Positions 17,384-34,514 of a stretch of DNA of 48,086 bases are shown in pieces. A program made the translations under genes and the position numbers. The stretch is from Clostridia bacterium (GTDB lineage: Bacteria; Bacillota; Clostridia; Christensenellales; Borkfalkiaceae): the NCBI GenBank assembly GCA_014804995.1, contig JAAUYS010000003.1, positions 1 through 48,086 of the forward strand. The letters run 5' to 3'. The notes under the pieces were generated by a model. The model made no database searches and was not told the origin of the DNA. It saw nothing but the letters and a program-made list of their open reading frames with translations. How positions within the stretch are numbered: position 1 is the stretch's first letter; every line of letters begins with the position of its first letter.

Positions 17384-18445
17384 TTAGTCCCCTTCATCCT
17401 CCAGCAAAATATATTTAAGCATATCAAAAGCTGATAATCGCTTTGCTTCTTTCTTTGAACTGCAAGTATGGTAATAATAGTACTCGTATCCGCCCACACG
17501 ACATTCACACAGCCACATCGGGTTACCGTTTTTATCGTGTTTTTCTTCAAAATAATATTCGGGGAATTCTATGTAACCCTTTTGTGCAAGTTCGTGAAGT
17601 TGGCTTACCGCCTTCTCTATTGTGGGTTCACCTACCTCATCTGCCATAGTAAATAGCAAACCTTCATCATATAGATAGTTGTACGCTAACTCCGCCGCCA
17701 ACATTCTTGCTTGGCTTTTGGAGTATCCAAATCCAATAAACGGCTCGCCTTCGTCAATACGCAATTCGCAAACAATATCCCCTTCGCCTGCTTCCATTCT
17801 TTCACGCTGGTTTGCAATTCTAAATAAACGGTACATACGCTGAATGTCGTAATCGTGCTTATCCATAAAGCAATAGTCTGGAAGTTCTCCCGTTTCTTTT
17901 TGATGCCACTGTTGAATCAATGAAACATAATCGTTCTGGTCATCAAAACCGTTCTCTAAATAGAAATCTAAATGAAGCATCATTTCAACGGCATCCTGCA
18001 TAGCTTCAATGTTCCAACCGCTATCTATGGCAACCGCACCAATAATAGCCTCAAACAAATCTTCTTTAACGCTTTCTTCATTTTGAACATTTTTTGCAAT
18101 ATCGCCTTTACCCATAATCAGGTATTCTGCAAATCCAAGCTCATCGATACGTTCCGCCAGCATTTTACCTTCTACCAAGTGCTTTTTCAATTCAGTTAGC
18201 TTGCCTTCGGCATATTCACATTCATATTCATCACGGTCATTCACATTACCGTAATACTCAGTAAGAGCCTTAACGACAATTAAATCTAAAACCTTATCGC
18301 CAATAAACTCTAACACCTCGTTGTTATCGCCGTTATGCGTTTCTACCGTATAACTCTTTCTGGTAAACGCCTGTTGCAATAATAGCCTGTTCTTAAACTC
18401 GTACCCTATTTGTTGTTCAATTTCAACGTACTGTTCATTGTTCAT
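17384..18445 (-). CDS. Ribonuclease III family protein with two dsRNA-binding domains
   Basis: A 353-residue protein. Residues 1-160 form the RNase III domain with the signature NNEVLEFIGDKVLDL and the second metal block EDLFEAIIGAVAIDSGW, so catalytic acids are present. Two dsRBD-like segments follow (about 175-268, ending SKSQARMLAAELAYNYL; about 275-348, ending SSKKEAKRLSAFDMLKYIL). Bacterial RNase III is normally about 230 residues with one such domain. The start is MNNEQYVEIEQQ, 9 bases after AGGAGG; the frame continues 12 codons upstream. It lies outside the usual rnc-smc context, so it may be a second, specialised enzyme. Acidic sequence is frequent between the domains. Confidence 0.85.
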   Translation of the reverse strand: MNNEQYVEIEQQIGYEFKNRLLLQQAFTRKSYTVETHNGDNNEVLEFIGDKVLDLIVVKALTEYYGNVNDRDEYECEYAEGKLTELKKHLVEGKMLAERIDELGFAEYLIMGKGDIAKNVQNEESVKEDLFEAIIGAVAIDSGWNIEAMQDAVEMMLHLDFYLENGFDDQNDYVSLIQQWHQKETGELPDYCFMDKHDYDIQRMYRLFRIANQRERMEAGEGDIVCELRIDEGEPFIGFGYSKSQARMLAAELAYNYLYDEGLLFTMADEVGEPTIEKAVSQLHELAQKGYIEFPEYYFEEKHDKNGNPMWLCECRVGGYEYYYYHTCSSKKEAKRLSAFDMLKYILLEDEGD

Positions 18446-18488
18446 AAAAAAATGCCTCCTTAGTTTTCTCACAGAGGGCATAATAAAA

Positions 18489-18682: not shown

Positions 18683-18862
18683 TATCAGTCGTAAAAACTT
18701 TCAAAATTTTTATATTACTACATATGACCTGATTTTTTATATTGCTAAGTTGCTGACTGAAATTGTAGCAATCACGATTAGCAAGATATAATGTAAGACA
18801 TTAAAAAGTCAAGATTTCTACTTTTCACTGGTGATAAGACTAAATGTCACACCTGATGACAA

Positions 18863-18875
18863 AGTCAGAGTCCGT
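18863..18875 (+). other. Candidate attL core
   Basis: AGTCAGAGTCCGT is identical to 13 bases of the tRNA-Gln anticodon arm. The neighbouring decamer TCCGTCATTC recurs at 19076 and inverted at 19028, and once in the tRNA, so a core at 19028-19037 is also possible. Confidence 0.55.
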
Positions 18876-18895
18876 CATTCAACCCACAAAACAAG

Positions 18896-18918
18896 CAAAA
18901 AAGGGGCAAAATTGCCCC
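18896..18918 (-). terminator. Terminator of the defence operon
   Basis: GGGGCAA-AA-TTGCCCC (18903-18918), followed on the minus strand by TTTTTT. It is the first good terminator after the desulfurase stop codon at 19175. Confidence 0.7.
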
Positions 18919-18954
18919 AAAATCAGCTATTTTTAATGATTTTTTAACTTTTAC

Positions 18955-19150
18955 TCCCCTTTTTACTCCCAAATTTTTTCCAAGTTTGGGAGTAAAAACT
19001 TTTCATTCATTTTTTGCCATTAATTTTGAATGACGGACTAAAAAAGTATCTTTTTTATACTCCCAAAAACTTTTGTCCGTCATTCAAGAAAAACAAGAGA
19101 GATTTTAAACAAATTTGGGAGTAAACTCCCAAATTTAGAGTTGCTCCCAA
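18955..19150. repeat. ACTCCCAAA repeat cluster at left end of element
   Basis: ACTCCCAAA occurs at 18965, 19059 and 19125, inverted at 18985 and 19114, with a near copy at 19143. Two copies form a 26-bp palindrome (19111-19136). The same nonamer occurs twice at the right end (34332 and 34344). Paired arrays next to both ends suggest integrase or excisionase arm sites. The rest of 18546-19174 holds no convincing gene. Confidence 0.65.
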
Positions 19151-19174
19151 AATATTATTTTTAACTTGATGATT

Positions 19175-20305
19175 TTAAGTTAATATTTGCTTAATACTGT
19201 TTGCAATTAGCTCGGCATCTTGCAATGAATTGTCTTTCCCAAACGAAACCCGAATAGTTCCTTTAGCGTACTCTTCAGGAAGATTTATTGCTTTCAATAC
19301 ATGTGATATTTGAGTATTTTTACTGTCACAAGCAGCCCCCGTCGACACCATTATATTTAAAATGTCAAGGCGATGTAAAAGCATTTCCCCATCGGCATTT
19401 CTAATGGATAGGCTTATATTCCCAGGCACATGCGCTTTTGACCCATTTACAATAAAATCTATATTATTCTTCGCCAATAAAGATAGAAAGTGCTTTTCTA
19501 TTTTTGTAATGTGTTCCGAGTTGTATACTAACTGCTTACAATTATTATTCAAGGCAATAGCCATACCAACAATAGCCGCAACATTTTCTGTGCCCGCACG
19601 TAGAGCATATTCTTGTTGCCCGCCGTTTTCATGTGCAATAATGTTAGTCCCCTTTTTTATATAAAGAAAGCCAACGCCTTTAGGCCCATTGAATTTATGC
19701 GCCGAAGCAGATAACAAATCTACCCCTAACTTTTTAACATCAACAGGGATATGGCCTACTGCTTGCACCGCATCTGTATGAAAAAGTGCACCATTATAAT
19801 GAGCTAAAGAACTTAATTCTTTAACAGGTTGTATTGAGCCAACTTCATTATTCGCCATCATTATTGAAACAAGTTTCGTTTGAGGGGTAATATACTGCTC
19901 CAATATTTCAAGCGTTATAATTGCTTCATTGTTTGCGGACAAGTAGGCAACCGGTACACCGAATTTTTCAACTTGTTTACAAGAATTTAAAATTGCATGG
20001 TGTTCAATATTACTTGTAATAATAGCTTTGTGGCTCAAATCATTAAATGCAATGCCTTTGATAGCCCAATTATCGCTTTCCGTTCCACCTGAAGTGAAAT
20101 AGATTTCATCAGGCTCAGCGTTGATGCATCTCGCAATTAGCTCTCGTGCTTCTTTTATTGCTTGCTTCGTTGCTCTAGAAAATGAATAGGGCTGTGAAGC
20201 ATTAGCATAGCTTTCTAGCAAAAAAAGTTTCATCGCTTCAAACGCTTCAATATCTAGTTTTGTCGTTGCCGCATTATCAGCATAGATTATTTTTTCTATT
20301 TTCAT
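19175..20305 (-). CDS. NifS/IscS/DndA-type cysteine desulfurase
   Basis: A 376-residue PLP enzyme that takes sulfur from cysteine as a protein persulfide. Motifs: YADNAATT at the N-terminus, TSGGTESDNWAI, MMANNEVGSIQPV, the PLP lysine in SASAHKFNGPKG, and the mobile catalytic loop STGAACDSK. It is the last gene of the brxP operon and overlaps the previous gene by 29 bases. In the dnd phosphorothioation pathway DndA plays this role for DndC, a PP-loop Fe-S protein related to the reductase domain of BrxP. I infer that this enzyme supplies sulfur or matures Fe-S clusters for BrxP. A second, housekeeping IscS is expected elsewhere. Confidence 0.93.
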   Translation of the reverse strand: MKIEKIIYADNAATTKLDIEAFEAMKLFLLESYANASQPYSFSRATKQAIKEARELIARCINAEPDEIYFTSGGTESDNWAIKGIAFNDLSHKAIITSNIEHHAILNSCKQVEKFGVPVAYLSANNEAIITLEILEQYITPQTKLVSIMMANNEVGSIQPVKELSSLAHYNGALFHTDAVQAVGHIPVDVKKLGVDLLSASAHKFNGPKGVGFLYIKKGTNIIAHENGGQQEYALRAGTENVAAIVGMAIALNNNCKQLVYNSEHITKIEKHFLSLLAKNNIDFIVNGSKAHVPGNISLSIRNADGEMLLHRLDILNIMVSTGAACDSKNTQISHVLKAINLPEEYAKGTIRVSFGKDNSLQDAELIANSIKQILT

Positions 20306-20870
20306 ATGCTTTTTTTATTATTAAATTCACTCTTTGGCTTGCTAGTAGTCGGTTATCGCAAATGAATTTTATCCATTTGGTATGAACGAATATTTCTTTA
20401 CATCGAATCTCATAAAACATTTCATAGTGTTGAGATAATTCCTCAATTTTCTGGTTTTGTTTGTCCCAAGTCAAATTATTCAATTTAAACTCTTTCACAA
20501 AAGGGAATAACAGTCTATAAGGAGCACACGCTGACATTTGCCTAAGCCTGCTTATTATTTCTTTATCTGAACTATTAATAAGAAACTCAAAAACATCTTG
20601 ATTTGAAGAATAGATTGAAATATGTATATTTAGACTTAATGCATACTGAATCAAGTCATATATCCTATCATTCTTTGTAAATCTCTCATAATATTTTTCA
20701 TAATATTCCCAAGCCATTGCAACTATACCACACGATAACTCTTTAAAGGAAAACACCGACTTTTGTTCAGAAATATTCTCCACCAAATATTTCATAAGAA
20801 ATAATTTATATGATGTATTTCTAGGTGCAAGCATATTTTCTATAGTTTCAATAGATACTGACTCAATCAT
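20277..20870 (-). CDS. 197-residue operon protein, resembles N-terminus of an HNH endonuclease family without the HNH
   Basis: The block NTSYKLFLMKYLVENI followed by FSFKELSCGIVAMAWEYYEKYY and NDRIYDLIQYAL resembles, from memory, the N-terminal domain of a defence-linked HNH endonuclease family that usually reads SYKxFWFxAIL...MIxxAWYPV. The C-terminal part (about 135-197) has no H-N-H or CxxC pair, so no nuclease site is visible; WIKFICDNR may be a remnant of the linker. It overlaps brxL by 8 bases and the desulfurase by 29 bases, so it is translated with them. It could be an adaptor, specificity factor or inactive nuclease. Function unknown. Confidence 0.7.
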   Translation of the reverse strand: MIESVSIETIENMLAPRNTSYKLFLMKYLVENISEQKSVFSFKELSCGIVAMAWEYYEKYYERFTKNDRIYDLIQYALSLNIHISIYSSNQDVFEFLINSSDKEIISRLRQMSACAPYRLLFPFVKEFKLNNLTWDKQNQKIEELSQHYEMFYEIRCKEIFVHTKWIKFICDNRLLASQRVNLIIKKAYENRKNNLC

Positions 20871-22302
20871 TATAACCTTTCACTTTAATATCAGGCATTA
20901 AATCTCCTCTTGCATATTGAGGATCCATAAAAGCCAATTGTGTTTTAACAATTTTTCTTTTTTCAAATGCAGGCAAAAAACAATAATTATAAAAATCTTC
21001 TGGACTTATATCTGAACTGGTTTTTACATTAGGAAATAATAATTTTAAATACGCCGTTGCTAGCCTTTGAATCGCCTTTTTATCTCTTGTATCCGCATCA
21101 TTCGGAACAACCAAAAATGAATTCACAACCTGTCCATACTCCGGCATAGCGCGCATTGTATTCATTATTTCGCTGAAATATTCTACGTTTAATGTATATC
21201 CAGTAAATATCAAATCTTCCTGCATAACGGGCAATTTCCAGCCTTCTATAAAACCGTGGAACCTAACCAATAATGCCGTATCATGGAAAACTTCAGGCAA
21301 TTCATAAAAGTATACTTTATTCTCAGGAAAACCGCTAGAATTTAAATTAACATTACCCAGTAAAATCATCCCACAAGACGATGTTTGTTTTGTTTTACCA
21401 ACAGTAAACGTTCCGTCCTCCAAATAGTTCTTAAGTCCTCCAACAATTTCGGCTGGATTATCAAATTTGATAGTTTTAATTTCATCCATAGCAACGAAAT
21501 CATATGTTGCCAAAATTCCAGGTGTTTGGGTTCCCATATCATAGAACAATTTTGCTCTAGTTACTTTTCCTCCACTGATATGCCAGCCGTATTTGCTAAG
21601 ATTATTAAACACGTATGATTTACCTGTTCCTTTAGGAGCAAGTTCAATCATATTTAATCGCGGTTCAACAAAAACCATCAATCTTGATAAAAAGTTGATT
21701 TTTTTAGATAAAGAATCAAATTGACTTGAATTTGGATTATATTCCATACAAGACAACATAAAGTCTATCCATTCTTCAACAGAAAATTGACCTCTTGCCC
21801 GACAAAAATAATCATAATCCGGTTTATAAGGTTTGAACGACTGAAAAGTCAACATTTGAATATATCCGAAATCATTATCAAAAGGCGGAACATATTCCAG
21901 GGTCACTATGCCCCAGTTTTCCCCAGTCTTCACATTGCCTTCCGACATTAAACCTTGTGACACCCGCCCTTCGGAAGATCTGATACCCAAATCAGGAATA
22001 GCAAATTTATACCTGTTTGTCTTAATATCAACTTCAACTAAAACTCTTACTAAAACTTTAACTCTTTCATTTTGTAAAAGTCTATTTTTTATATCATCAT
22101 CTTTCGCCGGAATATGTTTTTGTAAAAAATCTTTGATTTTGTTTACATCTGGCTTTCCAACAGACATTGAATATCTTTTTAAAAGCCAATCTTTGATAAA
22201 AGACGGAATATTATATCCGTTAAAACAGCTATAAATAGAAGACGCTTTATAAATGCACTCATCTGTAAAAATATTTAAAACTTTGCTATCTAAATTAGTC
22301 AT
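20863..22302 (-). CDS. brxL: BrxL, AAA+ Lon-like protein of BREX (short form)
   Basis: About 479 residues. The AAA+ core shows Walker A APKGTGKS (about 222-229) and Walker B FVAMDE (about 269-274), followed by a sensor region at LLGNVNLN. The N-terminal half matches the BrxL DNA-binding part in position. The C-terminal Lon protease domain found in the longer type 1 BrxL is not visible, which fits the short type 4 form. The start is uncertain: AGGAGG lies 11 bases before this ATG and only 2 bases before another at 22311. It overlaps the pglZ stop, so translation is coupled. BrxL is needed for phage exclusion in studied systems. Confidence 0.88.
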   Translation of the reverse strand: MTNLDSKVLNIFTDECIYKASSIYSCFNGYNIPSFIKDWLLKRYSMSVGKPDVNKIKDFLQKHIPAKDDDIKNRLLQNERVKVLVRVLVEVDIKTNRYKFAIPDLGIRSSEGRVSQGLMSEGNVKTGENWGIVTLEYVPPFDNDFGYIQMLTFQSFKPYKPDYDYFCRARGQFSVEEWIDFMLSCMEYNPNSSQFDSLSKKINFLSRLMVFVEPRLNMIELAPKGTGKSYVFNNLSKYGWHISGGKVTRAKLFYDMGTQTPGILATYDFVAMDEIKTIKFDNPAEIVGGLKNYLEDGTFTVGKTKQTSSCGMILLGNVNLNSSGFPENKVYFYELPEVFHDTALLVRFHGFIEGWKLPVMQEDLIFTGYTLNVEYFSEIMNTMRAMPEYGQVVNSFLVVPNDADTRDKKAIQRLATAYLKLLFPNVKTSSDISPEDFYNYCFLPAFEKRKIVKTQLAFMDPQYARGDLMPDIKVKGYND

Positions 22303-24817
22303 CAAAGCCATCTCCTCCTATCGATGCGCCCATAGTACCTTGAATTAATAATTCTAAACTATTGCCATTTATAATAATCTTAACATTTTGAGTCTTTATT
22401 TCTGATATAGAACATTCCCACATATTATTACCAACTAGAGACATTATGTGCCTTATCCCACTTTGCTCTTCCAAAATTGGAGCTTCTTCTATATGTGGAA
22501 GTATTTCTATGGTTACTTTGTGGTTTAAACCACTTATCGGTGGCGACAAAACCTTTAAATTATAATCAATATCTTCTTTATCTTTACTATCTGAAAAAAT
22601 AATACACGGCACAACCACTTCTTCAACTGTTGCACCTCCATGAGATTCTCGTTTGGGTTTATCTTTTAATGAAATCTCATTTAAAGAAAATATCCATGTC
22701 GTACCATCAAAATTCGATGTGTATTTGTAATAGTCTTCGCTGTCTGCAATATTTATAAAATCGTTAACTTTTGCGCATCGTCCTTCATGATCGCTTTCAA
22801 AATTATATTTCTTGTTATATTCAATAATTTTACTCGCAACCGTTGCCCCATGATCTGCAATTAAGGCAACTCGCTTACCTGGATACTTTCTTATCAAACG
22901 ATCAATCAATTCTTTGATTACATCTAATGCTGAAGGTATAACATCCTCTGGATGATAAAACTTACCATGGATAATATCTCTGTCAAAGGTGACATTCCAT
23001 TCATCGTATTTACCTTCCAAGATAGCTTTATTTGATGTCGTAATAGAAGGCAAAACACATTTGCAGATGTTTGAATAACTTATATTTTTGCCTTTATCTT
23101 TCAGATAAGAAATAATAAATTCAAAATATTCTGCCCCAACACCATCTAAAACAATCAAAAAATCATATATTTTCTTATTTAGTGCTTCAAGTGGCAACTT
23201 TAAATTACTATTAGAATACCACTGCGGGAAATTTGCAGCATTGTTTCTAACAGCCACATTATAATCATACATAGGAGTATCAAAAATCTTTGATAACCTA
23301 TAAGTATGAAGATATGAAGCTATCCACTGTAATGAATTTCCTATATTTACAGAAGTGTTGTTCCCAATATAATTAAACAAATCTAAATATAGCCCATTTA
23401 CTTCATTGATTTCGATCAAACTTTCTTTAATCAAAAGTATAACTAATTTTTTCTCTTGTTTCGTTTTACATGTCAAAATCTTAGATAAAAATGAATCATA
23501 AAACTCTCTAAATATTGCTCTGAAGTAATCCTCATTGACATGAAACTTGACACAGAAATTATTAACTGAGATCGAAAACAAATCATATTTTGTAATTAAT
23601 ACATTAAAGATTTTTGTTTGTAAAAATGAATAAAATGCATTGTTTATTGCATCTGCCAACATATCATCCGCCGAGGATAATTCGTCCGAATCTAGTCGCC
23701 CAACAAAAAATCTTCTTGCTTTAAAATAAGTTTCTGAAAATAGCAAATTAACAAAAGAAACGATATCTCTATTAAAAGTCAAAAAGTTATTGCTCAAACT
23801 TTTGTCTAAAATTGAGATTAAATACTCGCTGTAATTAATCCTATTTCTTTCTTCTAATAGATAGATGTATAATATTTTTTTATACGACAAATCTGATTTG
23901 TTAAATAATTCTATAAAATTATTTTCGTCAATATTAGTTGTCTTTAGAAGTTTATGAGCAATTTCAACAAGGTTATAACAATTATGTTTAAAGCAATTAT
24001 CAAACAAAAATTTCCAGAAATCCTCTTCGAATAATTCTTGTTTGCAATAATTAAGCTTTACTTTAAACATATTTGTAAGCAAACTATAGTAACTATCTAA
24101 CTTTTCAATTAAAACAAAATTATCTGGCTTTGCCTTTTCGTATAACGTAACCAATGTATCAGATATGCAGACTATGCCATTATTCAAATTTAATCCTTTT
24201 GCTTTATAAAGAGACAGCCATTCTGTTGACGTGGATATTTTATTATTAAAATACTTCCCATCAAAACTTGAATTTGCATAAAATACGCAAATTTGATCAG
24301 AATTATCATCAATAATAAAGCTTGGTTTCAATATTGGATTTATACTTTCATTACGGCTGTTTGATCTTAATTCTATCTCAATTTTCTCAAATAGTGAATA
24401 GCATACAAAATAAATACGTTGTTTATTTTTTTGAGAAATACTTTCTATGTTCGTCATAAAAGAGATAATCAAAGCTTCTAAATCATTTCTACTATAAAAA
24501 CGAATTAGCTCAGAGAATCCCGTAATAAAATAGTCTTTAGTTGGATCTAGTTCATTTATATATTTTAATATTTGAGACTTAGATATCCAACCATCTTCAT
24601 AAGAAAGCAAATCGTATAAATCAATAAATTTTATATTATTAATTTTGTTATCTTTATTTTTTGAAAGATTTACTAGTTCTGAAATCAAATTAGATAAATC
24701 CGCTTCAGCGGTTGATGAGAGTCTCATAAATAAAAATCTAATAGGATACCTATCGTATGTATTAGCTTTTTTCTTATCATCAATTATTAATTTAATTAGC
24801 TCTTGCTGTTCAGTCAT
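22295..24817 (-). CDS. pglZ: PglZ, alkaline-phosphatase-fold protein of BREX
   Basis: An 840-residue protein. The first ~540 residues are helical and poorly conserved; the C-terminal part carries the PglZ/alkaline phosphatase-like fold: FLIVLDGVGAEY (metal Asp near 557), LPSITTSNK (nucleophile loop Thr/Ser), LIADHG (near 654) and ESHGG (near 725). PglZ is the defining BREX core protein and probably a metal-dependent phosphodiesterase or nuclease. It begins 13 bases after brxC and ends inside the brxL start region. The gene is AT-rich like the rest of the operon. Confidence 0.92.
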   Translation of the reverse strand: MTEQQELIKLIIDDKKKANTYDRYPIRFLFMRLSSTAEADLSNLISELVNLSKNKDNKINNIKFIDLYDLLSYEDGWISKSQILKYINELDPTKDYFITGFSELIRFYSRNDLEALIISFMTNIESISQKNKQRIYFVCYSLFEKIEIELRSNSRNESINPILKPSFIIDDNSDQICVFYANSSFDGKYFNNKISTSTEWLSLYKAKGLNLNNGIVCISDTLVTLYEKAKPDNFVLIEKLDSYYSLLTNMFKVKLNYCKQELFEEDFWKFLFDNCFKHNCYNLVEIAHKLLKTTNIDENNFIELFNKSDLSYKKILYIYLLEERNRINYSEYLISILDKSLSNNFLTFNRDIVSFVNLLFSETYFKARRFFVGRLDSDELSSADDMLADAINNAFYSFLQTKIFNVLITKYDLFSISVNNFCVKFHVNEDYFRAIFREFYDSFLSKILTCKTKQEKKLVILLIKESLIEINEVNGLYLDLFNYIGNNTSVNIGNSLQWIASYLHTYRLSKIFDTPMYDYNVAVRNNAANFPQWYSNSNLKLPLEALNKKIYDFLIVLDGVGAEYFEFIISYLKDKGKNISYSNICKCVLPSITTSNKAILEGKYDEWNVTFDRDIIHGKFYHPEDVIPSALDVIKELIDRLIRKYPGKRVALIADHGATVASKIIEYNKKYNFESDHEGRCAKVNDFINIADSEDYYKYTSNFDGTTWIFSLNEISLKDKPKRESHGGATVEEVVVPCIIFSDSKDKEDIDYNLKVLSPPISGLNHKVTIEILPHIEEAPILEEQSGIRHIMSLVGNNMWECSISEIKTQNVKIIINGNSLELLIQGTMGASIGGDGFDD

Positions 24818-24830
24818 ATAATCTCCAAAA

Positions 24831-27800
24831 TTAGACTAACAAATTTTCTATAAAAGCCACAACCTCAGGGAACTTTTTTGCTACTTCAATTAGTATTGAT
24901 TTAAGCTCATCAATAGACTTTTTGCATCCTTCAAGTTTATCAGCAAAAGAAATATCTTCTGTTACACCTAAATCAATCTTGGCAGTAGGCACTTCCATTG
25001 TTGACTCAGAGTTGTTTTGCGGAATGGATTCTGCCATTTTTTGTGTGTAACAAGTTATAATTTGCATAACAACATCAGGTTCTTTCCATAAAGATATTTC
25101 ATACTGAATATGTTGCTTTATGTACATCTTATAACTTTCTAGCTCTTCTTCATTTACCATACTCCCAGTATTTTGTTGCAGAGTGATGTTTATAAATTTA
25201 CCCAACAAATCAGTTTGTCCATCCTTTACTTTATCATAGGCAATGGACAAATCTATTTTTATATTGCCAATATTTTTAAGTAATGAACATATTTTATTTT
25301 GATTAATAGTTTCATCAGCATCTGTAGTAAAAACAAATAATTCATCTAAGGCTGAATTGTATTTTTGTGTTTGTCCATCACTTAAGTACTTTAACATCCA
25401 CAGCGGGAATTTACAGTCTTTTGTAAAAGTTTTTCTAATTTCCCATTTTAAATGAGTAAGTCCTGCTTGATTAAGTTTAAAGATTTGGTTTAAAGTGTCG
25501 ATTAACGTTAGTTCTTCGGTGCTACTAAATCTTACTTTTAATTTTGTATTAGATTTCCCTGTTGATTTAAACTTAAACAAAGCTTCGACTATATCTTTCA
25601 TAACGGTTTTATCTACTTTTATACCGTTATCAGCAACAAATATCTTATCTACAAACTGCTTCAACGATAAAGATACCGCAGCATAAGAAATTGGATTGCC
25701 ATAATAACCATATGGAACATCAAATAAAAAAGAAAGTTTTGAGGTTAAATCAATTAATGGACTTACAGAAGAAGCCTTTAATTCACTTTGCACAGCTTTT
25801 ATTAGCTTGACTATAGGATGCGCTTCAGGAGCATTAGGCAATAAGTTCATATCCTGATCAAAAATATAATTATTATTTTCATCTTTCAATAAACATTTTA
25901 AATTTGTTACTAATCCACCTGTCAATTTTTTCTCAATATCAGCTCTCTTTTGCTCATATAAGAAAGCCTCTATAGCTGCCTTTGAACTTTTTTCCTCCCA
26001 AATAGTATCCTTATTCGCAGTTTTTAAAGTATCCAATCCACAATTGAATACAAATGGAATATATTTGTCACAAATTTTTGATGCCAGACCCGCAACCGTT
26101 GTTATATCTTTTTCTCCTCTAAATACAGTAAATAACTCTCCATCATTAATAATATTATCAATCCAAATTTTAACCCTGCCAGAAGCCTTTGCTCTTTCAG
26201 CTTTAGCCTCTTCATCACTTGTCTTATCAATAATTTCACTTCTAGAGTAAGATTCAATGAAACGATTAAACTCAAATTCAGGTATTATATTTTCAATATA
26301 ACAAAAAACAACATTTGCAAACTCCGCTCTTTTTGAAAAGCTCAAAATACATTGTTTAATTTCTTCAGAGCCTCTTTCTGTATTCGCAATATTCTTTAAA
26401 CTATCACATGTTCCATGAGCAAAAAATGCAACGACATATAATGCATGATTATTTTTAACTTTATTCGCTAACTGAGTTTCTATCTGTGGATTTTTTAAAA
26501 TACAACTAAGATTTATTAATTCCACTTTGCGCATTGTCTTGTTATTATTTTTAGTTATGCGTCGTTTAAGCGGATCAATAGTAGAAGGGAATGTTTCAAA
26601 GCATTTAGTTATTTCATTAAAAAACTCATAATTTTTCTTTTTATATTTATTTAAATCTTCCTGAGAAATTGATGATGTGGAAATCTCAAAAATACCATCC
26701 GGGGATTTTACAACTATATTATTGCCATCTAAATATTCTAATGCGTCATCAACTTCTGACTGTTCATAAATTCCTGAATAGCAATCACAAATGTTTTTTA
26801 TATTAGGAACAACTAAGCTACGCTCATTATTATCTTCCCCAGTGCTAACAACTGAATTAAGAGTGTTTAGCAATAAGACTGTCTTAAATATATTTAAATA
26901 GACAGAGCCCTTCTTTTTAACATCATCAAGATGCATATTATATTTGTTTATAATTTCGGCTAATTTCGTCCCAGAGTTTGCTGTATCGTTATTAATTTTT
27001 AAAAAGAAGTCCCAAATACTATTCGGCGCCAAAAACTTTTCTTCTTCAATTGTTGAATTAATAAATTTTTTAAAACCTACCGTCTCATCATTTAAGAAAT
27101 TGAATACACTTCTTTCAGATGCGCCCAATTGCCTAGAAACAAACGTCGATAAATATGCGGTATAAGGATGAAAAGGATATAAGCTAATAATTTTATTTCT
27201 AATTTCAGTCATATTCCCAACAGTATTTTCACAAATTCTATCTATAAGATTTGAAACTGCCAAATTAGAATTAATTCTGTCATCAACTAGCTTTTTAATG
27301 TATCCTTCATCTTTTCTATCTAAAGTGCTAGATAAAATATGATATGTAGTGTTAGGTTGCATATCATAAGAACAAGTGATAAATCTATCTGAAGCCAGCT
27401 TTCTCTCTTCGGCATCTTTTAACTTGTAAGCATCTGTTTGCTCAAATGTCTTATGAGTAACCAAAAAAATATATATCCCTTCCGGCTCACCTGAATCATC
27501 CAGTGCTTTACTCATTTCTGCAATATCCTGCACCGTATTTAAAATGCTTCTGCATTCTGCGCCAGATAATAAAGATGTAAATTCATCCCACACTATTAAC
27601 AAGTTATTTGCAACACCATTTGCAACCAGTTGATTTTTTACATCTTTAAGCCAATTAACTATACTTGATGTACCGAAAGACGCACCAGTATCGTTTTTAA
27701 ATTTTGCATCAATAATGCTTAAAACATCGCGGTCACAATTTATTAGTCTTTTTTCTATATCATCTTTAGTTTTACAGTAAATTTTTAATTCGTTTTGCAA

Positions 27801-28340
27801 CAAATCAACCCAAAAAGATTCATATCTCGGGTTCTTTAAAACTTTTATAGCCATTTCATAATCTGTTTTAATATTGATAGAAACTCCTGCTCGTTCTAAA
27901 GCGGCACGCGTTTCTTGTTGAATAACATAAGCCATATCTTTTACGTCATTAATAGTATAGCGACCTTTTAAAACAACGGGAAAAGATATATGATCCTTTC
28001 TATATTCTTCGATATCGTACTTTAATTGTCTATCCGACAAGGATTTCACAAAGTCCATTATTTCCGACTGAGGGTCGCACAATAAATGTTTTATAACCGA
28101 TGTGGAATGGCTTTTACCAGTACCGTATGTACCTTGTACCCATATAGATTTCCTATCATTCAAATTAGTTGATATTGGCGCAGTAAAAGCATGGATTATC
28201 TTTTTTAAATTAATTTCAAACTGAGAATTAGTTATAAAAGATTTCCATGATTCGGGACGCTCTTGTGTAATGTTAAATGTATCATCAAAGTTAGGTCTAA
28301 CTCCGATAATTTCGTTATATTTTACTGCTGCAATACTCAT
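24831..28340 (-). CDS. brxC: BrxC, large P-loop ATPase of BREX
   Basis: About 1169 residues. SIWVQGTYGTGKSHS (about 64-78) is the Walker A; NNLLIVWDEFTSLL (about 245-258) is the Walker B; VTHKTFEQTDAY follows as sensor. The N-terminal IGVRPNFDDTFN and SIWVQGTYGTGKS blocks and the size are typical of BrxC/PglY. The ATG at 28340 overlaps the TGA of the zinc-finger gene as ATGA, so I prefer it to a GTG five codons upstream. BrxC-like ATPases form large assemblies with PglZ. The C-terminal ~60 residues look coiled-coil. Confidence 0.92.
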   Translation of the reverse strand: MSIAAVKYNEIIGVRPNFDDTFNITQERPESWKSFITNSQFEINLKKIIHAFTAPISTNLNDRKSIWVQGTYGTGKSHSTSVIKHLLCDPQSEIMDFVKSLSDRQLKYDIEEYRKDHISFPVVLKGRYTINDVKDMAYVIQQETRAALERAGVSINIKTDYEMAIKVLKNPRYESFWVDLLQNELKIYCKTKDDIEKRLINCDRDVLSIIDAKFKNDTGASFGTSSIVNWLKDVKNQLVANGVANNLLIVWDEFTSLLSGAECRSILNTVQDIAEMSKALDDSGEPEGIYIFLVTHKTFEQTDAYKLKDAEERKLASDRFITCSYDMQPNTTYHILSSTLDRKDEGYIKKLVDDRINSNLAVSNLIDRICENTVGNMTEIRNKIISLYPFHPYTAYLSTFVSRQLGASERSVFNFLNDETVGFKKFINSTIEEEKFLAPNSIWDFFLKINNDTANSGTKLAEIINKYNMHLDDVKKKGSVYLNIFKTVLLLNTLNSVVSTGEDNNERSLVVPNIKNICDCYSGIYEQSEVDDALEYLDGNNIVVKSPDGIFEISTSSISQEDLNKYKKKNYEFFNEITKCFETFPSTIDPLKRRITKNNNKTMRKVELINLSCILKNPQIETQLANKVKNNHALYVVAFFAHGTCDSLKNIANTERGSEEIKQCILSFSKRAEFANVVFCYIENIIPEFEFNRFIESYSRSEIIDKTSDEEAKAERAKASGRVKIWIDNIINDGELFTVFRGEKDITTVAGLASKICDKYIPFVFNCGLDTLKTANKDTIWEEKSSKAAIEAFLYEQKRADIEKKLTGGLVTNLKCLLKDENNNYIFDQDMNLLPNAPEAHPIVKLIKAVQSELKASSVSPLIDLTSKLSFLFDVPYGYYGNPISYAAVSLSLKQFVDKIFVADNGIKVDKTVMKDIVEALFKFKSTGKSNTKLKVRFSSTEELTLIDTLNQIFKLNQAGLTHLKWEIRKTFTKDCKFPLWMLKYLSDGQTQKYNSALDELFVFTTDADETINQNKICSLLKNIGNIKIDLSIAYDKVKDGQTDLLGKFINITLQQNTGSMVNEEELESYKMYIKQHIQYEISLWKEPDVVMQIITCYTQKMAESIPQNNSESTMEVPTAKIDLGVTEDISFADKLEGCKKSIDELKSILIEVAKKFPEVVAFIENLLV

Positions 28341-28534
28341 AAAAACAATGTACACCCCTCTTCTTTAAATTGTTCTATTTTATCAGATAAAGCCTCAACA
28401 TTTGTATCCAAATAATCTGCTAAACAGTTCATGCAAAAAAACTCTTTCACATGTTTAGAAATTAATTTTTTATTTAATGCAATCACATCTTTATCAATTT
28501 CTGCCCCGCATCTTTCACAGCAAATTTTTTTCAT
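28337..28534 (-). CDS. Small zinc-finger protein inside the BREX operon
   Basis: A 65-residue protein with two Cys pairs, CERC and CMNC, about 30 residues apart (CCERCGAEID; FFCMNCLADYL), a treble-clef or ribbon-type zinc site. It overlaps brxP and brxC by ATGA junctions on both sides, so the three are translated in step. I do not recognise it as a named BREX component. A DNA-binding or adaptor role between BrxP and BrxC is inference. Confidence 0.8.
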   Translation of the reverse strand: MKKICCERCGAEIDKDVIALNKKLISKHVKEFFCMNCLADYLDTNVEALSDKIEQFKEEGCTLFL

Positions 28535-30936
28535 AATTGCTTCTCCAGTATAGATAGCACATCGTAAGAATTAATGCCCGCATTTAATTTGATATTATCT
28601 AACCCCGCTTGAAGTTCAGCCGTTAAAATTCCTTTTTCGGTTAAGCTTCTCAGTATCGTATTGAATTTATCGAGTGGCAAATTAAATACAACTCCAGGAC
28701 CATTTAATTCTTTTATCTCATATAATTCTGACACGGAAAATGCTACTCTATTTTCTTTTTCGGATATTAAATATAACAAATAAGCTATTGCTACTTCCGA
28801 AATGTTTTCAGAGCCAACTTTCCTAGTCATTCTATTTTGCTTATTACCAGAAACAACCCCCATTTTTAAAGAATAATTGGAGAAATCAACATCTTCGATT
28901 CTACATCCGAATGGAGAGTTTTCAAACATATTTAACAAGGCACCAGCTGGATTTCCTAATGTCGCCTCCGACAATCCAGGAAAACGGTATTGCATCATAG
29001 TAATTAAATCTGGCTTACTATAATCACTTAAATTAGTTAAATCTTGAACATAGCATTCAACAGCCGGAGCATAAAAACATAAATTAATCCATATTAATTG
29101 CCAAGCGATAAATGCTCTCTTCGTGAATATTTTCTGAATCAACAATCCTAGTTCAGATAATTTTTTTTCTTTTAAGTCTACAAGTCTAGCATCTCTTAAC
29201 CAATTTATAGCCGCAGGTATCATTCTTGGACCTAAACCGGGATATTCAATAAACCATTCATTACCGATTTCCATTATGTTGTTGATCCAATCTTCTTTTA
29301 ACCCAAATGTAGAATATCTATCTATGCCTGCAGTTCTTATATTTTTAGCATTCATTCCAACTCCTCCTTCAGATACTCTTCTCCTACTGCCAACTATACA
29401 CCCATAGGAATTTACTTCATAACATTTATGGCAATGAATACAAGCAGTTGTGTTAATTGAAATATTATTCTTTCTAATGGTTAAAGCACCAGTTGGACAA
29501 TCAGCTTCACAAACTCCACATCGTTCGCAATAAGCGGTTTTTGTTAAAACCTTATTCATATAGCTCGTTAGGTGAATTTTTCCGCTCGTCCCTAACATTT
29601 TAACATGTAGTTTATCTTCGCTCGCATCGATTGAAAATTTTATAATTTCGTCGTTGCAATTAATTGTTCCAATATAATTCCCATTCCCATTATCACTTAT
29701 GACATATTTACCTATTGTATTTATCCAAATCTTCCAATCTTGTTTCGGCTTATGTATTACACATTCATAATCTGGTTCCTTTCGCAATATGTCCATTCTT
29801 GTGTCATCTTGCTCCAACCCTTTACCACCAGCATTTTTCTTCCAATTTCCTGAGGATATATAATGGTCAATATGTTCTTGACTCTTTACGCCAATCTGTT
29901 TTGCCATCCGCTCAATTATTTGTATAAATGGCTTGGATATTTCTGGATAGAGGTAATTTATTAAGTATTCGGACCAAGACGATGCGAAAGGACAAATATT
30001 GCACCCTATCCTAGTCAATCCTTTTGTATAGCCATCATTAATGTTTACTTTTGAGCGACATAAAATATATAAATAAACTTCCGTATCACTCCAATAAAAT
30101 ATTGGTCTACAGTTTATTAAGTTAACGTGTTTTACACCTTCACCAACTCTATCATATGATTCTCGGCGCGAACTTTCATCGGCGCGAACACCTTCAAAAA
30201 CTACACATTTTGGTTGCTTTTTAGTTTTTAGTTCGTCTTTTAACGTCCTTGCAAAAAGTGCTGTTTTCCTTACTTTACAACACCACCTATTCATTCTACT
30301 CGGTGGACCATACTTTTCCCATTGTTTTAGGATTGAGTCTTCAGACTTGCAAGTTATAAGTTTAAATTCAGGATATAATTTCTTATAAGTTTTCCTAGTC
30401 GTTTCAATTGTTTCATATGTACACGGCAATTCCATCCCTGTATCCGTGTAAAATACTTTGTACTTTTTTGGGGGAATAACACGAGTAACCAAATCTAAAA
30501 CAACTTGCGAATCTTTCCCTCCGCTAAAAGCCACAGCAAGTAAATCTACTTTATTTGAATAATAGCTATATTGCTCATTAATAAAATCTATTGCTTCATT
30601 TTCAATTATGCTTAATTGCTTCTCATTAACCTTAGAAAGTTGAATTAAATCAATCGGTTTTATCTTCTGAAACTCAAATTGTTTTGGATATATAATTTGT
30701 GGCTTATTATAAAGATCCCCACCCTTTGTTTCAAAAATTAAAGTTCCTTCATAAAAATATTTTCGATCACAACACCAACACACGGGCACATTCTCTTTAG
30801 GAAATGAATACTTTTCAATTCCTAAAATCCTTAATTCATCGGAATAAACTATTCTAGGATCATTAAGTGCTATTTTATCATCAGCAGATTCTACTAATCT
30901 TATTAAATTCTTTTTTTCCCAAACTACTTTATACAT
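28531..30936 (-). CDS. brxP: BrxP, PAPS-reductase-like PP-loop / ferredoxin / DUF4007-like fusion
   Basis: An 801-residue protein, first gene of the operon. An N-terminal segment has CWCC (53-56). The PP-loop domain shows SGGKDS (138-143), RWCCKVRK (Cys 219, 220) and IGCNICPF (Cys 312, 315), placed like the Fe-S cysteines of DndC-type proteins. A two-cluster ferredoxin follows: Cys 470, 473, 476, 480 and Cys 499, 502, 505, 513. The C-terminal region (about 525-801) looks like DUF4007. PP-loop enzymes of this class adenylate or reduce sulfur compounds; DndC acts in DNA phosphorothioation. In type 4 BREX this protein takes the place of the methyltransferase. It should act with the desulfurase at the operon's end. 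Confidence 0.9.
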   Translation of the reverse strand: MYKVVWEKKNLIRLVESADDKIALNDPRIVYSDELRILGIEKYSFPKENVPVCWCCDRKYFYEGTLIFETKGGDLYNKPQIIYPKQFEFQKIKPIDLIQLSKVNEKQLSIIENEAIDFINEQYSYYSNKVDLLAVAFSGGKDSQVVLDLVTRVIPPKKYKVFYTDTGMELPCTYETIETTRKTYKKLYPEFKLITCKSEDSILKQWEKYGPPSRMNRWCCKVRKTALFARTLKDELKTKKQPKCVVFEGVRADESSRRESYDRVGEGVKHVNLINCRPIFYWSDTEVYLYILCRSKVNINDGYTKGLTRIGCNICPFASSWSEYLINYLYPEISKPFIQIIERMAKQIGVKSQEHIDHYISSGNWKKNAGGKGLEQDDTRMDILRKEPDYECVIHKPKQDWKIWINTIGKYVISDNGNGNYIGTINCNDEIIKFSIDASEDKLHVKMLGTSGKIHLTSYMNKVLTKTAYCERCGVCEADCPTGALTIRKNNISINTTACIHCHKCYEVNSYGCIVGSRRRVSEGGVGMNAKNIRTAGIDRYSTFGLKEDWINNIMEIGNEWFIEYPGLGPRMIPAAINWLRDARLVDLKEKKLSELGLLIQKIFTKRAFIAWQLIWINLCFYAPAVECYVQDLTNLSDYSKPDLITMMQYRFPGLSEATLGNPAGALLNMFENSPFGCRIEDVDFSNYSLKMGVVSGNKQNRMTRKVGSENISEVAIAYLLYLISEKENRVAFSVSELYEIKELNGPGVVFNLPLDKFNTILRSLTEKGILTAELQAGLDNIKLNAGINSYDVLSILEKQL

Positions 30937-31008
30937 TGCTTTAATCTTTCAATAATTTTTATTATATTGTCGTAGCTATCAACTTTTTAGCAAAGAACAA
31001 TCTTTTAT

Positions 31009-31037
31009 ATTATAACAAATTACGACACGCTTTTCAA
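31009..31037 (-). promoter_or_regulatory. Promoter of the BREX operon
   Basis: On the minus strand TTGAAA (31037-31032), a 17-base spacer and TATAAT (31014-31009). The predicted leader before brxP is about 65 bases. TACGACA in the spacer (31021-31027) has an inverted partner TGTCGTA in the leader (30968-30974), a possible looped operator or leader stem. Confidence 0.75.
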
Positions 31038-31099
31038 GAATATAGCTGTAACTTTGTCAAGCGCTTGCAAGTAGTTTTTTAGAATTTTTTTGTAGACTA

Positions 31100-31318
31100 T
31101 TAAACAAGACTCCATTTTGCAAACAAATGAAGGCGCATGTGGCAAATATTATTTAACCGACTTCTTGCAATAAAACATCGTTGCTCTAGCTTTCCCTCTG
31201 CACGGCACAATCCTTTTAGTCTCAAACAGTCATATGTTTCTTTTGGCGTCTTGCCGTCGGCAATCATTCTTTGAAAGTCATGGCGTCTTCTCATGAACGC
31301 CTTTGTTCCCCATATCAT
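31100..31318 (-). CDS. Small basic hypothetical protein, 72 residues
   Basis: Starts ATG with AGGAGA 4 bases upstream. It is strongly basic (FMRRRHDFQ, RLKGLCRAEGKLEQRC, IARSRLNNICHMRLHL) and could bind nucleic acid. It lies between the BREX promoter and the mobilisation region, on the strand of the BREX operon. I do not recognise it. An ORF remnant (about 25 codons, ending near 31358) sits just upstream. Confidence 0.5.
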   Translation of the reverse strand: MIWGTKAFMRRRHDFQRMIADGKTPKETYDCLRLKGLCRAEGKLEQRCFIARSRLNNICHMRLHLFAKWSLV

Positions 31319-31618
31319 TTTCTCCTATATTAAAAGACTGCTTCTGTCGATATTTTTTACGCAAATAATAGATTTTTTTGTCGACATTGCGCTATATCTG
31401 CAGTAAACTCAATCCCATTTCCTTCACAGAATTTACTGATTTAAATTAAGCTTGAGCATTGTTACGATGTAAACAATGTGCATTATAGTGTCTAATAATT
31501 AAGACAATCTTTCTTTGCAAAATGTGTCATTTTATGTAAAAACCTCACGCCATAAATAGGGTGTGAGGTTATTTATTAAAATTTATTTTAACAATTTTAT
31601 TAAAATGGTTGCAAAAAC
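31319..31618. other. Non-coding segment with palindromes
   Basis: No full gene. A -10-like TATAAT on the minus strand lies next to the palindrome TGTCT-n8-AGACA, and CATTGTT/AACAATG form another 7-bp inverted repeat just downstream, which looks like an operator region for the 72-residue gene. AACCTCAC and GTGAGGTT (31541-31570) form a hairpin with a T-run on the minus strand. Confidence 0.45.
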
Positions 31619-31782
31619 AGCTTCTTATTCGGCTACCATATGTAAGGCTTTTTTAAAAGTTTTTCAAAAGCGCATAAAAAGGCTTGCTAATCGGCTACCC
31701 ATTGTAGGGTATTTTTAGAAAATTAAAACTATTTTGGGGAAATGTAAACTTTTAGGCGTCTTACTTGGCTACCTATTGTAGA
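31619..31782 (+). repeat. Three degenerate ~28-bp direct repeats
   Basis: Copies at 31619-31647, 31681-31709 and 31755-31782 share GGCTTCTTA-T-GGCTACC-ATTGTAGG. Each has the short inverted words CTAC and GTAG and is followed by a T/A-rich run. They lie upstream of the oriT and resemble iterons or regulator sites. Confidence 0.65.
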
Positions 31783-31834
31783 AATATTTTAAAAAAATTT
31801 TTTAAATATAACAATAACTGTCATATTTTACTTT

Positions 31835-31901: not shown

Positions 31902-31929
31902 CAAAGTATATGGTTAAAAGCCCCGCAGG

Positions 31930-31970: not shown

Positions 31971-31999
31971 AAAGATTAAATGAGACAACAAGGAGGTAA

Positions 32000-32983
32000 A
32001 TGCTTATAAGTTATTTAATATGCCATATGGAAAAATATAAACGGCAGGAAGTGAGTCCTGTCGAGGAAGAGAACGAACGGGATGAAACTTACGAGGCAAG
32101 CAATCCGCAGATAGATGCAAGCCGCACAGGCGCAAACTATCACATTGTAAAGCCAAAGAAAAGCTACATAAAGTTTATTAACGAACGGCTAGCCACCCTC
32201 TCCCTTTCAAGGAAATTGCGAAGCGATGCAATCTATATGAACTCGTTTGTGCTTGGTTCAGACGGAGCGTTTTTTGAAAGTATTTCACCGCAAGAACAAT
32301 GGCAATTCTTTTGCGACTGCACAAAATTTTTTGCAAACAAGTACGGCAGAGAAAACATAATTTCGGCTATCGTCCACGTTGACGAAACAACGCCACATCT
32401 GCACTTAAATATAGTGCTTATCGTAAACGGAAAACTGTGTTCCAAAGACTTGTTCGATAAAAAGAAGTTATCGATTTTGCAAACGGAATTTCACGAAGCC
32501 GTTGAGAAGAAATACGGACTGCAACGGGGCAAAGAAGGCAGTACGGCAAAGCACCTTTCCACAGCGGAATTAAAGGCAAAGACGATAATCGAGGCGGCTG
32601 AAAAGCGCAGTACAGAAATAGATGAAAAAGCCGAGCGCAAGCAAGCCGAATTGGACGAACTGACGCAAGAGGTTACGCAAGCCACGGATAAGCCCATACC
32701 CAAAAGGAAATCGGACATAGAAAAAGAGATAACCGCACTCCGGACAAAGACTGTTGTGCAAGACAGAGAAATAGCAATCAGGGCGCAAGACCAAGCAGAC
32801 CTTTTCAAAGAGTTGCAGGACGCCAAGCGCAAAAGCCATGGCGAAGATATAGCATACAAAATGGTTACCGACATGATGTCTGCCTACCCCGATGAGTTCG
32901 ACGCTCTTCTTAAAAAATCACGAGAAAAGAAAACAAACACTACTACTCCCATTCGCAAAAACAGCGGATGGAACAGCAAATAA
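32000..32983 (+). CDS. mobV: MobV family relaxase (Pre/Mob)
   Basis: A 327-residue relaxase. ISYLICHMEKYKR at the start, RTGANYHIVKP, and the metal-binding triad VHVDETTPHLHLNIV (HxDE...PHxH) identify MobV. The second half (about 190-300) is a charged coiled coil, probably for dimerisation or membrane contact. AAGGAGG lies just before the ATG. It nicks the oriT immediately upstream and pilots the strand through a helper conjugation apparatus. It is somewhat shorter than the 490-residue MobM. The integrase gene follows 70 bases downstream. Confidence 0.92.
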   Translation: MLISYLICHMEKYKRQEVSPVEEENERDETYEASNPQIDASRTGANYHIVKPKKSYIKFINERLATLSLSRKLRSDAIYMNSFVLGSDGAFFESISPQEQWQFFCDCTKFFANKYGRENIISAIVHVDETTPHLHLNIVLIVNGKLCSKDLFDKKKLSILQTEFHEAVEKKYGLQRGKEGSTAKHLSTAELKAKTIIEAAEKRSTEIDEKAERKQAELDELTQEVTQATDKPIPKRKSDIEKEITALRTKTVVQDREIAIRAQDQADLFKELQDAKRKSHGEDIAYKMVTDMMSAYPDEFDALLKKSREKKTNTTTPIRKNSGWNSK

Positions 32984-33053: not shown

Positions 33054-34316
33054 ATGACTCAAGAGAAATTAATCGAAGTACTTAATTTTATTAAAGACGT
33101 AGATTGTTCGGACGAGCAAAAACGCTTAATGCTTGAAATGGCGGCTAACACAATTACCGTTGACAAGCTGAGCGGACTTGTGCAGTCCGACGGGCAAAAA
33201 ACGAGTAAGTTTAAAAAACATCGGAAGGGGCTGAAATTTACCAAAAAGGAGATTTCAAAAATGCCGACAAATTACAAAAACATCTTTGCAACGAACGATA
33301 TGATAGTCCACTACCGTCTGAGAAAAGACGGAGTGTACGAAGCGAGATTTCATAGACAAGGAATAGACATCGAAGTTTCGTCCAAAGACTTGACTAAACT
33401 CAAACAAAAATTCATCGATAAACTTAATAACAAAGACGGACAGCCCGACAAATCCCACAAGAAGAGCAACAAGACGTTTGCAGAATACGCCGACGAGTGG
33501 ATTAACATTAAAAAGGTTACGACAAAAGAATCGACCTATAAAGAATACGTGCGGTTACTCAACCACGATTTGCTTCCCGAATTCGGCGAGAAAAAGGCGA
33601 AAGAAATAGACCGCTCTATGGTGCAGAACTTCCTTTTCATCTATGTAGAAAAGGGCGTTGTACGAACGACGCACAAACTTATGTTGATGCTGAAGTGTAT
33701 CTTTGATATGATAGCTGACGACTACGGAATACCCACGCCGATGAGAAAGGTTGTATTGCCGAACTATGAAACCAAGAAAGGTTCTGCATTCACCTACGAG
33801 GAAGAAAAGAAACTAATCAACCACTGCCTTGCAAACCTAAGCCGAGACACCTCTCACGCATTTATGGTGCTGTTGTACACGGGAATGCGCCGTAGCGAAC
33901 TTGCAAGCCTGAATATAGTAGATGACACTTGGCTTGAATGTGAAACCAGCAAAGAGCGAATGGGCAAGAACGCAGTAATGCGCAAAATACCGTTCACGCC
34001 TATGATGAAACGGGTGTTACCCTACATAGACTTTGAAAAGGCGAAGAACGTAAACCTTAACAGTTTGCACACGGCAATGAAGAGGTTGTTCCCCTTCCAC
34101 CACCTGCACGAACTCAGATATACGTTTATAACCCGAGCAAAAGAATGCGGAGTTCACGGCGAAGTCGTAATGTTGTGGGACGGACACGAGGAAGATAAAA
34201 CCATACATTCTTCGAGAATAGACAGAGGTTACACAGACTTTTCGGACAAGTTCCTGTTAAAAGAAGCGAAGAAGGTTGACTACTTACAATGGGATTTTGG
34301 CGAAGTAAAAACGTGA
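33054..34316 (+). CDS. int: Tyrosine-type site-specific integrase
   Basis: A 420-residue tyrosine recombinase. An extra N-terminal helix region (1-75) precedes an arm-binding-like domain (about 78-125: VHYRLRKDGVYEARFHRQG) and the core-binding SAM-like domain (TFAEYADEWINIKKVTTKEST). Catalytic residues: Arg in LYTGMRRSEL, H-x-x-R in HLHELRYTF, His in WDGHEED, and the nucleophile Tyr in DRGYTDFS. GGAGG precedes the ATG by 4 bases. It sits next to tRNA-Gln, its proposed target, and close to ACTCCCAAA sites that it may bind. Confidence 0.93.
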   Translation: MTQEKLIEVLNFIKDVDCSDEQKRLMLEMAANTITVDKLSGLVQSDGQKTSKFKKHRKGLKFTKKEISKMPTNYKNIFATNDMIVHYRLRKDGVYEARFHRQGIDIEVSSKDLTKLKQKFIDKLNNKDGQPDKSHKKSNKTFAEYADEWINIKKVTTKESTYKEYVRLLNHDLLPEFGEKKAKEIDRSMVQNFLFIYVEKGVVRTTHKLMLMLKCIFDMIADDYGIPTPMRKVVLPNYETKKGSAFTYEEEKKLINHCLANLSRDTSHAFMVLLYTGMRRSELASLNIVDDTWLECETSKERMGKNAVMRKIPFTPMMKRVLPYIDFEKAKNVNLNSLHTAMKRLFPFHHLHELRYTFITRAKECGVHGEVVMLWDGHEEDKTIHSSRIDRGYTDFSDKFLLKEAKKVDYLQWDFGEVKT

Positions 34317-34397: not shown

Positions 34398-34440
34398 CGG
34401 CATCTTTAGGTCGAAAATGCCTAAAAATGCCTGTTTTTTT
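34398..34440. terminator. Terminator between integrase and tRNA-Gln
   Basis: GGCATCTTTAGG pairs with CCTAAAAATGCC with one mismatch, followed by TTTTTTT on the plus strand; AAAAAAA precedes it, so it may also serve the tRNA. Confidence 0.75.
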
Positions 34441-34514
34441 GGCTGGGGCGAAGTGATTCGAACACCCGAATGACGGAGTCAGAGTCCGTTGCCTTACCGC
34501 TTGGCGACGCCCCA
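34440..34514 (-). tRNA. tRNA-Gln(CTG)
   Basis: 75 bases: acceptor TGGGGCG/CGCCCCA with G discriminator and encoded CCA, D-arm GCC-AAGCGGTAA-GGC, anticodon loop CTCTGAC (CTG), T-loop TTCGAAT. The anticodon arm contains the 13-base att core. The T-stem has two G-T pairs, which fits a 3' half supplied by the element. Confidence 0.93.

Follow-up and report, generated by a model that had tools for sequence, protein, structure and literature searches.

A type 4 BREX operon with predicted phosphorothioate marking on a probable integrative mobilizable element in a Clostridia bacterium

A stretch of 48,086 nucleotides (nt) from a Clostridia bacterium (assembly GCA_014804995.1, contig JAAUYS010000003.1), termed here the window, contains a type 4 bacteriophage exclusion (BREX) operon of seven uninterrupted open reading frames. 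These are read on the minus strand from position 30936 to 19175 in the order BrxP, ZnF65, BrxC, PglZ-4, BrxL, P197 and cysteine desulfurase (Table 1). Sequence comparisons make it very probable that this is a defence operon situated on a probable integrative mobilizable element, with predicted phosphorothioate marking of DNA and predicted exclusion by PglZ and BrxL.

Gene content of the operon

Five of the six gene junctions overlap: brxP/ZnF65 by 4 nt, ZnF65/brxC by 19 nt (counted from the listed start of brxC, an upstream GTG), pglZ/brxL by 17 nt, brxL/P197 by 8 nt and P197/desulfurase by 29 nt. The remaining junction, brxC/pglZ, is a 13-nt gap. An earlier note on this DNA, made from the sequence without database searches, had described a seven-gene overlapping operon; all seven open reading frames are intact at the coordinates it gave and the junctions overlap or nearly touch. 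PADLOC, NCBIfam and Pfam models name five of the genes (brxP, brxC, pglZ, brxL and the desulfurase).

The core that characterizes BREX-4, i.e. brxC, a BREX-4-type pglZ and brxL together in one operon, is present. The general PglZ model of Pfam scores below its cut-off on the operon PglZ. BrxL gives 627.2 bits with PADLOC PDLC02505 and matches structures 8emc/8emh across positions 31–460, and lacks the long C-terminal region that the solved 679-amino acid (aa) BrxL has. BrxC is of a short form (1160–1189 aa) common to the window and the loci L019, L039 and L056, compared with ~1393–1420 aa in other complete loci.

No DNA methyltransferase domain, including the PglX type, was found in the seven operon genes and the 20 other open reading frames of the window that were scanned, which agrees with the earlier note; this statement applies to those frames (smaller ones, e.g. 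31100–31318, lay outside the scan) and not to the whole genome. The note had also assigned one promoter and one terminator to the operon. Candidate sites are indeed present at both ends, but because promoter-like sites in the scan (81 versus 71.6 expected) are as a class not above chance, and terminator-like sites number 10 versus 5.5 expected, this assignment is suggestive at most.

Table 1. Features of the operon, of its surroundings and of related phage loci. Positions are those of the window unless a locus is named.
Feature	Position	Strand	Description and evidence
Att-like repeat, far end	18856..18875	+	2 differences from the copy in the tRNA gene
Terminator-like hairpin	18918-18903	-	~260 nt past the desulfurase gene
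Cysteine desulfurase, 376 aa	19175..20305	-	NifS/DndA/SspA type; DndA 411.8 bits, SspA 408 bits
P197, 197 aa	20277..20870	-	Homologue of the N-terminal region of HNH_4 nuclease proteins; lacks the HNH domain
brxL, 482 aa	20863..22311	-	AAA+; TIGR02688 445.6 bits, cut-off 329.3
pglZ, 840 aa	22295..24817	-	BREX-4 type; NF033445 BREX_PglZ_4 364.4 bits, cut-off 140
brxC, 1174 aa	24831..28355	-	ATPase; PDLC02472 545.4 bits; short form of type-4 BrxC
ZnF65, 65 aa	28337..28534	-	Two CxxC pairs and a fifth Cys in a C-terminal GCxLF tail
brxP, 801 aa	28531..30936	-	PP-loop PAPS-reductase, 4Fe-4S ferredoxin-like cysteines, C-terminal DUF4007
Promoter-like site	31037-31009	-	TTGAAA-17-TATAAT, ~70 nt upstream of brxP; 11/12 consensus, TG before second hexamer
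Mob_Pre relaxase	32000..32983	+	PF01076, 162.7 bits
Tyrosine integrase	33054..34316	+	PF14659 and PF22022 over cut-off; PF00589 just under
tRNA-Gln (CTG), probable attachment site	34440..34514	-	Beside the end of the integrase gene
Att-like repeat within tRNA-Gln	34470..34489	+	18/20 identical to 18856-18875
Phage BrxP-like/ZnF fusion loci	L060 2403-5940; L061; L145-L151		ZnF65 domain fused to BrxP-like protein

Comparison with other loci

The operon was compared in a set of 17 loci in which all four core genes (brxP, brxC, pglZ and brxL) were matched: the window, L019, 12 other genome or plasmid loci, and three IMG/VR contigs (L058, L062 and L063). As these were found via BrxP searches, they are not a random sample. 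Loci left out were L042 and L047 (cut by contig ends or by the end of the stretch), L049 (brxP only, with a stop codon), L059 (brxP only, at a contig end), L152–L155 (short stretches) and L180 (found via the zinc finger, with no brxP on the contig). L062 was counted despite having brxP in two pieces, ~3 kb apart within positions 6656–12010; the locus is otherwise matched as type 4 BREX.

In L019, a contig of a Clostridia metagenome-assembled genome from goat cecum, all seven genes recur and their order is unchanged. Identities with the window are 76% for BrxP, 80% for the zinc finger, 72% for BrxC, 59% for PglZ, 89% for BrxL, 47% for P197 and 60% for the desulfurase. The zinc finger is present in 15 and the desulfurase in 11 of the 17 loci. 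The earlier note had taken random linkage of desulfurase and brxP as a sign that its reading would fail, and such randomness is not seen. A Methanosphaera plasmid has the four core genes only, with neither zinc finger nor desulfurase.

BrxP and the cysteine desulfurase

BrxP displays a score of 713.6 bits with PADLOC PDLC02510 and combines PF01507 (positions 133–316), PF13237 (465–508) and PF13182 (567–794), i.e. a 3′-phosphoadenosine 5′-phosphosulfate (PAPS) reductase domain together with DUF4007, as expected of this family. In an alignment of six BrxP sequences chosen by hand, the PP-loop SGGKD motif and 11 cysteines are invariant in all six. The cysteines are at positions 219, 312 and 315; 470, 473, 476 and 480; and 499, 502, 505 and 513. 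The sole match of the DndC model in the host assembly (84% complete) is BrxP itself; a second DndC-type protein was not found there.

In the desulfurase, Lys204, the residue for pyridoxal phosphate, and Cys326 of the catalytic loop align with those of solved cysteine desulfurases. Its score with the DndA equivalog TIGR03235 is 303.6 bits, under the cut-off of 480. In L019 a 178-aa open reading frame (21790–22326) lies directly 3′ of the desulfurase gene; no such frame follows the desulfurase of the window. It has no Pfam match. By its motif it looks like a GIY-YIG-type nuclease.

P197, an accessory protein without an HNH domain

P197 has no Pfam or PADLOC family match, and its only NCBIfam match is below cut-off. 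A relationship was found with the 359-aa HNH_4 protein of L008 (positions 928–2007), whose ~170 N-terminal residues align with P197 at ~25% identity and whose C-terminal part matches the HNH_4 domain PF13395. P197 is thus homologous to the front part of HNH_4 nuclease proteins (359–400 aa) but, unlike them, ends before the HNH domain. Neither P197 nor its L019 orthologue has such a domain, which rules out a role as an HNH nuclease. The label “HNH-family-like fragment”, used in the earlier note, needs correction to this extent: the resemblance is to the portion of the protein that precedes the nuclease.

The L019 orthologue (193 aa, 47% identical) occupies the same place in its operon. Within the set of 17, P197 is present in these two loci, i.e. 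in one of the 16 others. Searches of samples of the host's family (301 genomes), phylum (398) and class (391), which overlap, gave relatives of P197 in 14 other genomes, and in 12 of these an HNH-like motif follows in the same open reading frame; the remaining two (241 and 316 aa) display no such motif. The wide neighbourhoods of six of the 14 relatives gave no match to BrxP, BrxC, BrxL or the desulfurase. A PglZ match near the relative in L053 (E-value = 0.0076) is not meaningful.

The homology to the front of HNH_4 proteins, the HNH-like motif in most relatives and the restriction to two loci could be taken to mean that P197 is the functionless remains of an HNH nuclease gene. This is unlikely. 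The frame is intact in two separate loci, where the proteins end at nearly the same residue and the gene overlaps both neighbours in each. In addition, the first, second and third codon positions are 57, 71 and 47% identical between the window and L019, and P197 is therefore under coding constraint. Because an intact orthologue under such constraint exists, P197 is read as a functional, nuclease-free accessory protein of this BREX subtype.

P197 apparently represents an accessory protein so far undescribed. Literature searches found nothing on an HNH-less accessory protein of this kind, and the HNH passages of PMC12839542 deal with standalone and fused HNH nucleases near BREX and mention no HNH-less part. 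A structure model of P197 from the two-sequence alignment (predicted local distance difference test score, pLDDT, of 41.6) was too poor for a fold search. A P197 profile matched nothing in the PDB, a scan of viral contigs (583 pattern stretches) gave no relative, and plasmid searches with P197 and with the whole operon DNA yielded nothing.

ZnF65, a zinc finger with more than one context

The five cysteines of ZnF65 are kept in all 12 type-4 BREX relatives aligned. ZnF65 has no family match above cut-off in PADLOC, NCBIfam or Pfam. Its structure model has a pLDDT of 89.9 and gave no fold match at E ≤ 0.001 in the PDB or BFVD; the weaker matches (PHD fingers, AsnC, DeoR, KorA) are not evidence. 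A sequence search of the PDB gave one chain only (E-value = 0.79).

In the window and L019 the ZnF gene lies directly behind brxP and overlaps it. A closer connection is seen in one phage lineage from IMG/VR, where in all eight contigs (at least 91% identical) a BrxP-like protein of 578 aa has the ZnF65 domain as a C-terminal fusion, in the place of DUF4007. A second BrxP-like gene is found 3′ of the fusion, followed in most contigs by a free zinc finger with His as the fourth zinc ligand. Genes near the fusion in L060 gave matches to helicase, endolysin, spanin and tail-fibre proteins, so that L060 is a real phage. The stretches examined from this lineage show no match to BrxC, PglZ, BrxL or the desulfurase; a BrxC search of one 53-kb phage contig record likewise came back empty, although such an empty result is uninformative by itself.

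A different association appears in a sample of 200 genomes of the host's order. ZnF matches were found in 22 genomes, at 23 places: five are type 4 BREX loci (the window, L044, L046, L048 and L180), one is neither (L195), and the other 17 (L181–L194 and L196–L198) are directly behind a gene for a glycoside hydrolase family 27 (GH27) alpha-galactosidase, often overlapping it. Pfam Melibiase_2 was confirmed in all nine of the 17 GH27 neighbours that were scanned. Because of this pairing, the ZnF family is not specific to phosphorothioation. The family serves in at least two contexts as a small partner or regulator of a general kind; for ZnF65 itself, such a role in the BREX module is probable.

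The invariant fifth cysteine and the phage fusion raise the idea that ZnF65 serves BrxP as a dedicated sulfur relay, with this cysteine as persulfide carrier; the overlap of its gene with brxP would fit as well. The idea is weakened, since the same family is found behind genes of GH27 alpha-galactosidases, enzymes without sulfur chemistry, at 17 of the 18 non-BREX places, and several of these copies retain the GCxLF tail. PMC12839542 likens the BREX finger to helix-turn-helix regulators. On balance the relay function seems improbable, and the reading of ZnF65 as a small partner or regulator is retained.

The phage fusion raises testable questions: does the zinc finger belong to the modification enzyme, and is self-marking used by phages as counter-defence? 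The phage BrxP-like/ZnF cluster is, from its gene content, a candidate self-marking module. A more extended proposal is that ZnF65 belongs physically to the modification head formed by BrxP and that phages took this head; by placing thio-marks on their own DNA they could be mistaken for self by type 4 BREX. In the same proposal P197 is a nuclease-free adaptor of one bacterial subtype. This proposal is speculative and, taken as a whole, doubtful.

The carrier element

The features of an integrative mobilizable element, i.e. an integrase, a relaxase and att-like repeats at a tRNA gene, are present around the operon and define a candidate element at 18856–34514 (~15.6 kb). The 20-bp att-like repeat has no third copy in the window. 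The GC content of the operon is 31.5% versus ~44% on both sides. As the operon is AT-rich, stands beside the integrase and relaxase genes, and lies between tRNA-Gln and the matching repeat, it is probably cargo of a mobile element, and this element is probably an integrative mobilizable one.

Some observations weigh against this and would suit a different view, in which the operon is fixed host DNA. The integrase/relaxase part has a GC content of 42.7%, like the flanks and unlike the operon. An empty integration site was not found, and no tRNA gene was found next to the only gene closely related to that of the flanking RNase III. Against fixed host DNA stand the integrase gene that ends beside tRNA-Gln, the relaxase gene, and the repeat at the far end. 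Moreover, the L019 copy of the operon adjoins a serine recombinase instead, and of the 301 genomes of the host's family just 10 have a BrxP match (E ≤ 1e-60), mostly a partial one. There is thus only a small likelihood that the operon is fixed host DNA, and carriage by an integrative mobilizable element is preferred.

Minor features of the element ends may be mentioned. Further short repeats of the GGGAGTAAA type are located near 18960–19140, with a 15-bp match, TTTTACTCCCAAATT, at 34328–34342. The RNase III gene that adjoins the element (17384–18481) encodes 365 aa with a C-terminal double-stranded RNA-binding domain. A close relative was found in one of nine other genomes of the genus, and a second, shorter RNase III is present in the host assembly (G000, contig 36).

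Predicted mechanism and relation to known systems

The locus is known in its main lines, as sulfur marking, the desulfurase and the zinc finger have been described. In PMC12839542, type 4 BREX is treated as phosphorothioation-based, the desulfurase is named as possibly a sixth core component, and the zinc finger is described as a companion of the desulfurase; PMC11931770 counts brxPCZL among three families of phosphorothioate-synthesizing genes. A 2026 survey places the desulfurase in 255 of 457 taxa, with a small zinc finger often accompanying it. The sulfur-based self-marking proposed in the earlier note agrees with these sources and with the catalytic residues present, and its guess that a link between BREX and phosphorothioation might be published was right. 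Its view of the zinc finger as less described does not hold.

The window shares with published type 4 BREX the four core genes, the fusion of DUF4007 to BrxP, an operonic desulfurase and small zinc finger, and the lack of a methyltransferase. It differs in having P197, in the short BrxC, and in the position of the zinc finger gene, which is between brxP and brxC (likewise in L019) and beside brxL in other loci that have one. Brx genes are said to have been tested genetically in Bacteroides by Yuan and colleagues. Both PMC12839542 and PMC11931770 cite Yuan et al. 2024.

From the literature on phosphorothioate synthesis and the residues at this locus, we infer the following scheme. Cysteine would be the sulfur source of the desulfurase, which would hold the sulfur as a persulfide on Cys326. 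BrxP, with its PP-loop, Fe-S centres and DUF4007 DNA-binding part, would activate the backbone phosphate and insert sulfur, giving phosphorothioate marks. BrxC, related to SspC, may be the partner ATPase of BrxP, and PglZ and BrxL may carry out or license the exclusion of unmarked phage DNA. ZnF65 would assist or regulate the module as a small protein, and P197, with its origin in the front half of an HNH nuclease, would be a non-nucleolytic accessory subunit.

Several points weigh against this scheme. A PDB sequence search found no relative of BrxP. The host assembly contains five further genes of the aminotransferase-V family, four of which can be aligned with the operon desulfurase (25%–44% identity); these desulfurase-like genes of the host might serve BrxP, so that the operon's own enzyme may be helpful and not required. 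A desulfurase tree left BREX and host copies unseparated (support 52/46; none of nine inner branches strong). Since six of the 17 loci with all four core genes are without a desulfurase, it is not essential.

Some features would suit a rival view, in which the operon places sulfur on a base or another site and BrxP acts like a tRNA- or base-thiolation enzyme: the nearest general families of BrxP are PAPS-reductase-like PF01507 and archaeal PRK13795-type proteins, its match to DndC models is weak (27.2 bits in PADLOC), and PMC12839542 describes type-4 BrxP as lacking a Cys pair unique to DndC. This view is very improbable, as that same source and PMC11931770 assign the family to phosphorothioation. 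The predicted backbone marking is therefore kept.

The operon would then represent a complete sulfur-marking BREX of less than 12 kb, borne by a probable mobile element. Its compactness, with all genes in a single operon, would make it convenient for heterologous reconstitution. What it adds to the published record is small: P197 as a conserved accessory protein that lacks HNH, and zinc fingers of one family that occur next to two unrelated enzymes and, in a phage, joined to a BrxP-like protein.

The resemblance to Dnd systems consists of the DndA-like desulfurase (412 bits) and the distant PP-loop kinship of BrxP and DndC (27 bits). The operon differs in being without DndD, DndE, DndB and DndFGH; with DndC below cut-off (21.1 bits with the equivalog, cut-off 290.4) and none of the seven genes matching DndD or DndE, it is not a Dnd system. 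In common with SspABCD are the desulfurase (SspA, 408 bits), the PAPS-reductase (SspD, 52 bits) and a weak likeness of BrxC to SspC (78 bits). In contrast to Ssp, the window has PglZ and BrxL, and BrxP is a fused PAPS-reductase/ferredoxin/DUF4007 protein. Shorter BrxP-like proteins (571–576 aa in the three listed) without the C-terminal DUF4007 are found in the window's own genus and family (L014–L018), where they are followed by open reading frames of 287–293 aa; these loci are probably Ssp-type systems.

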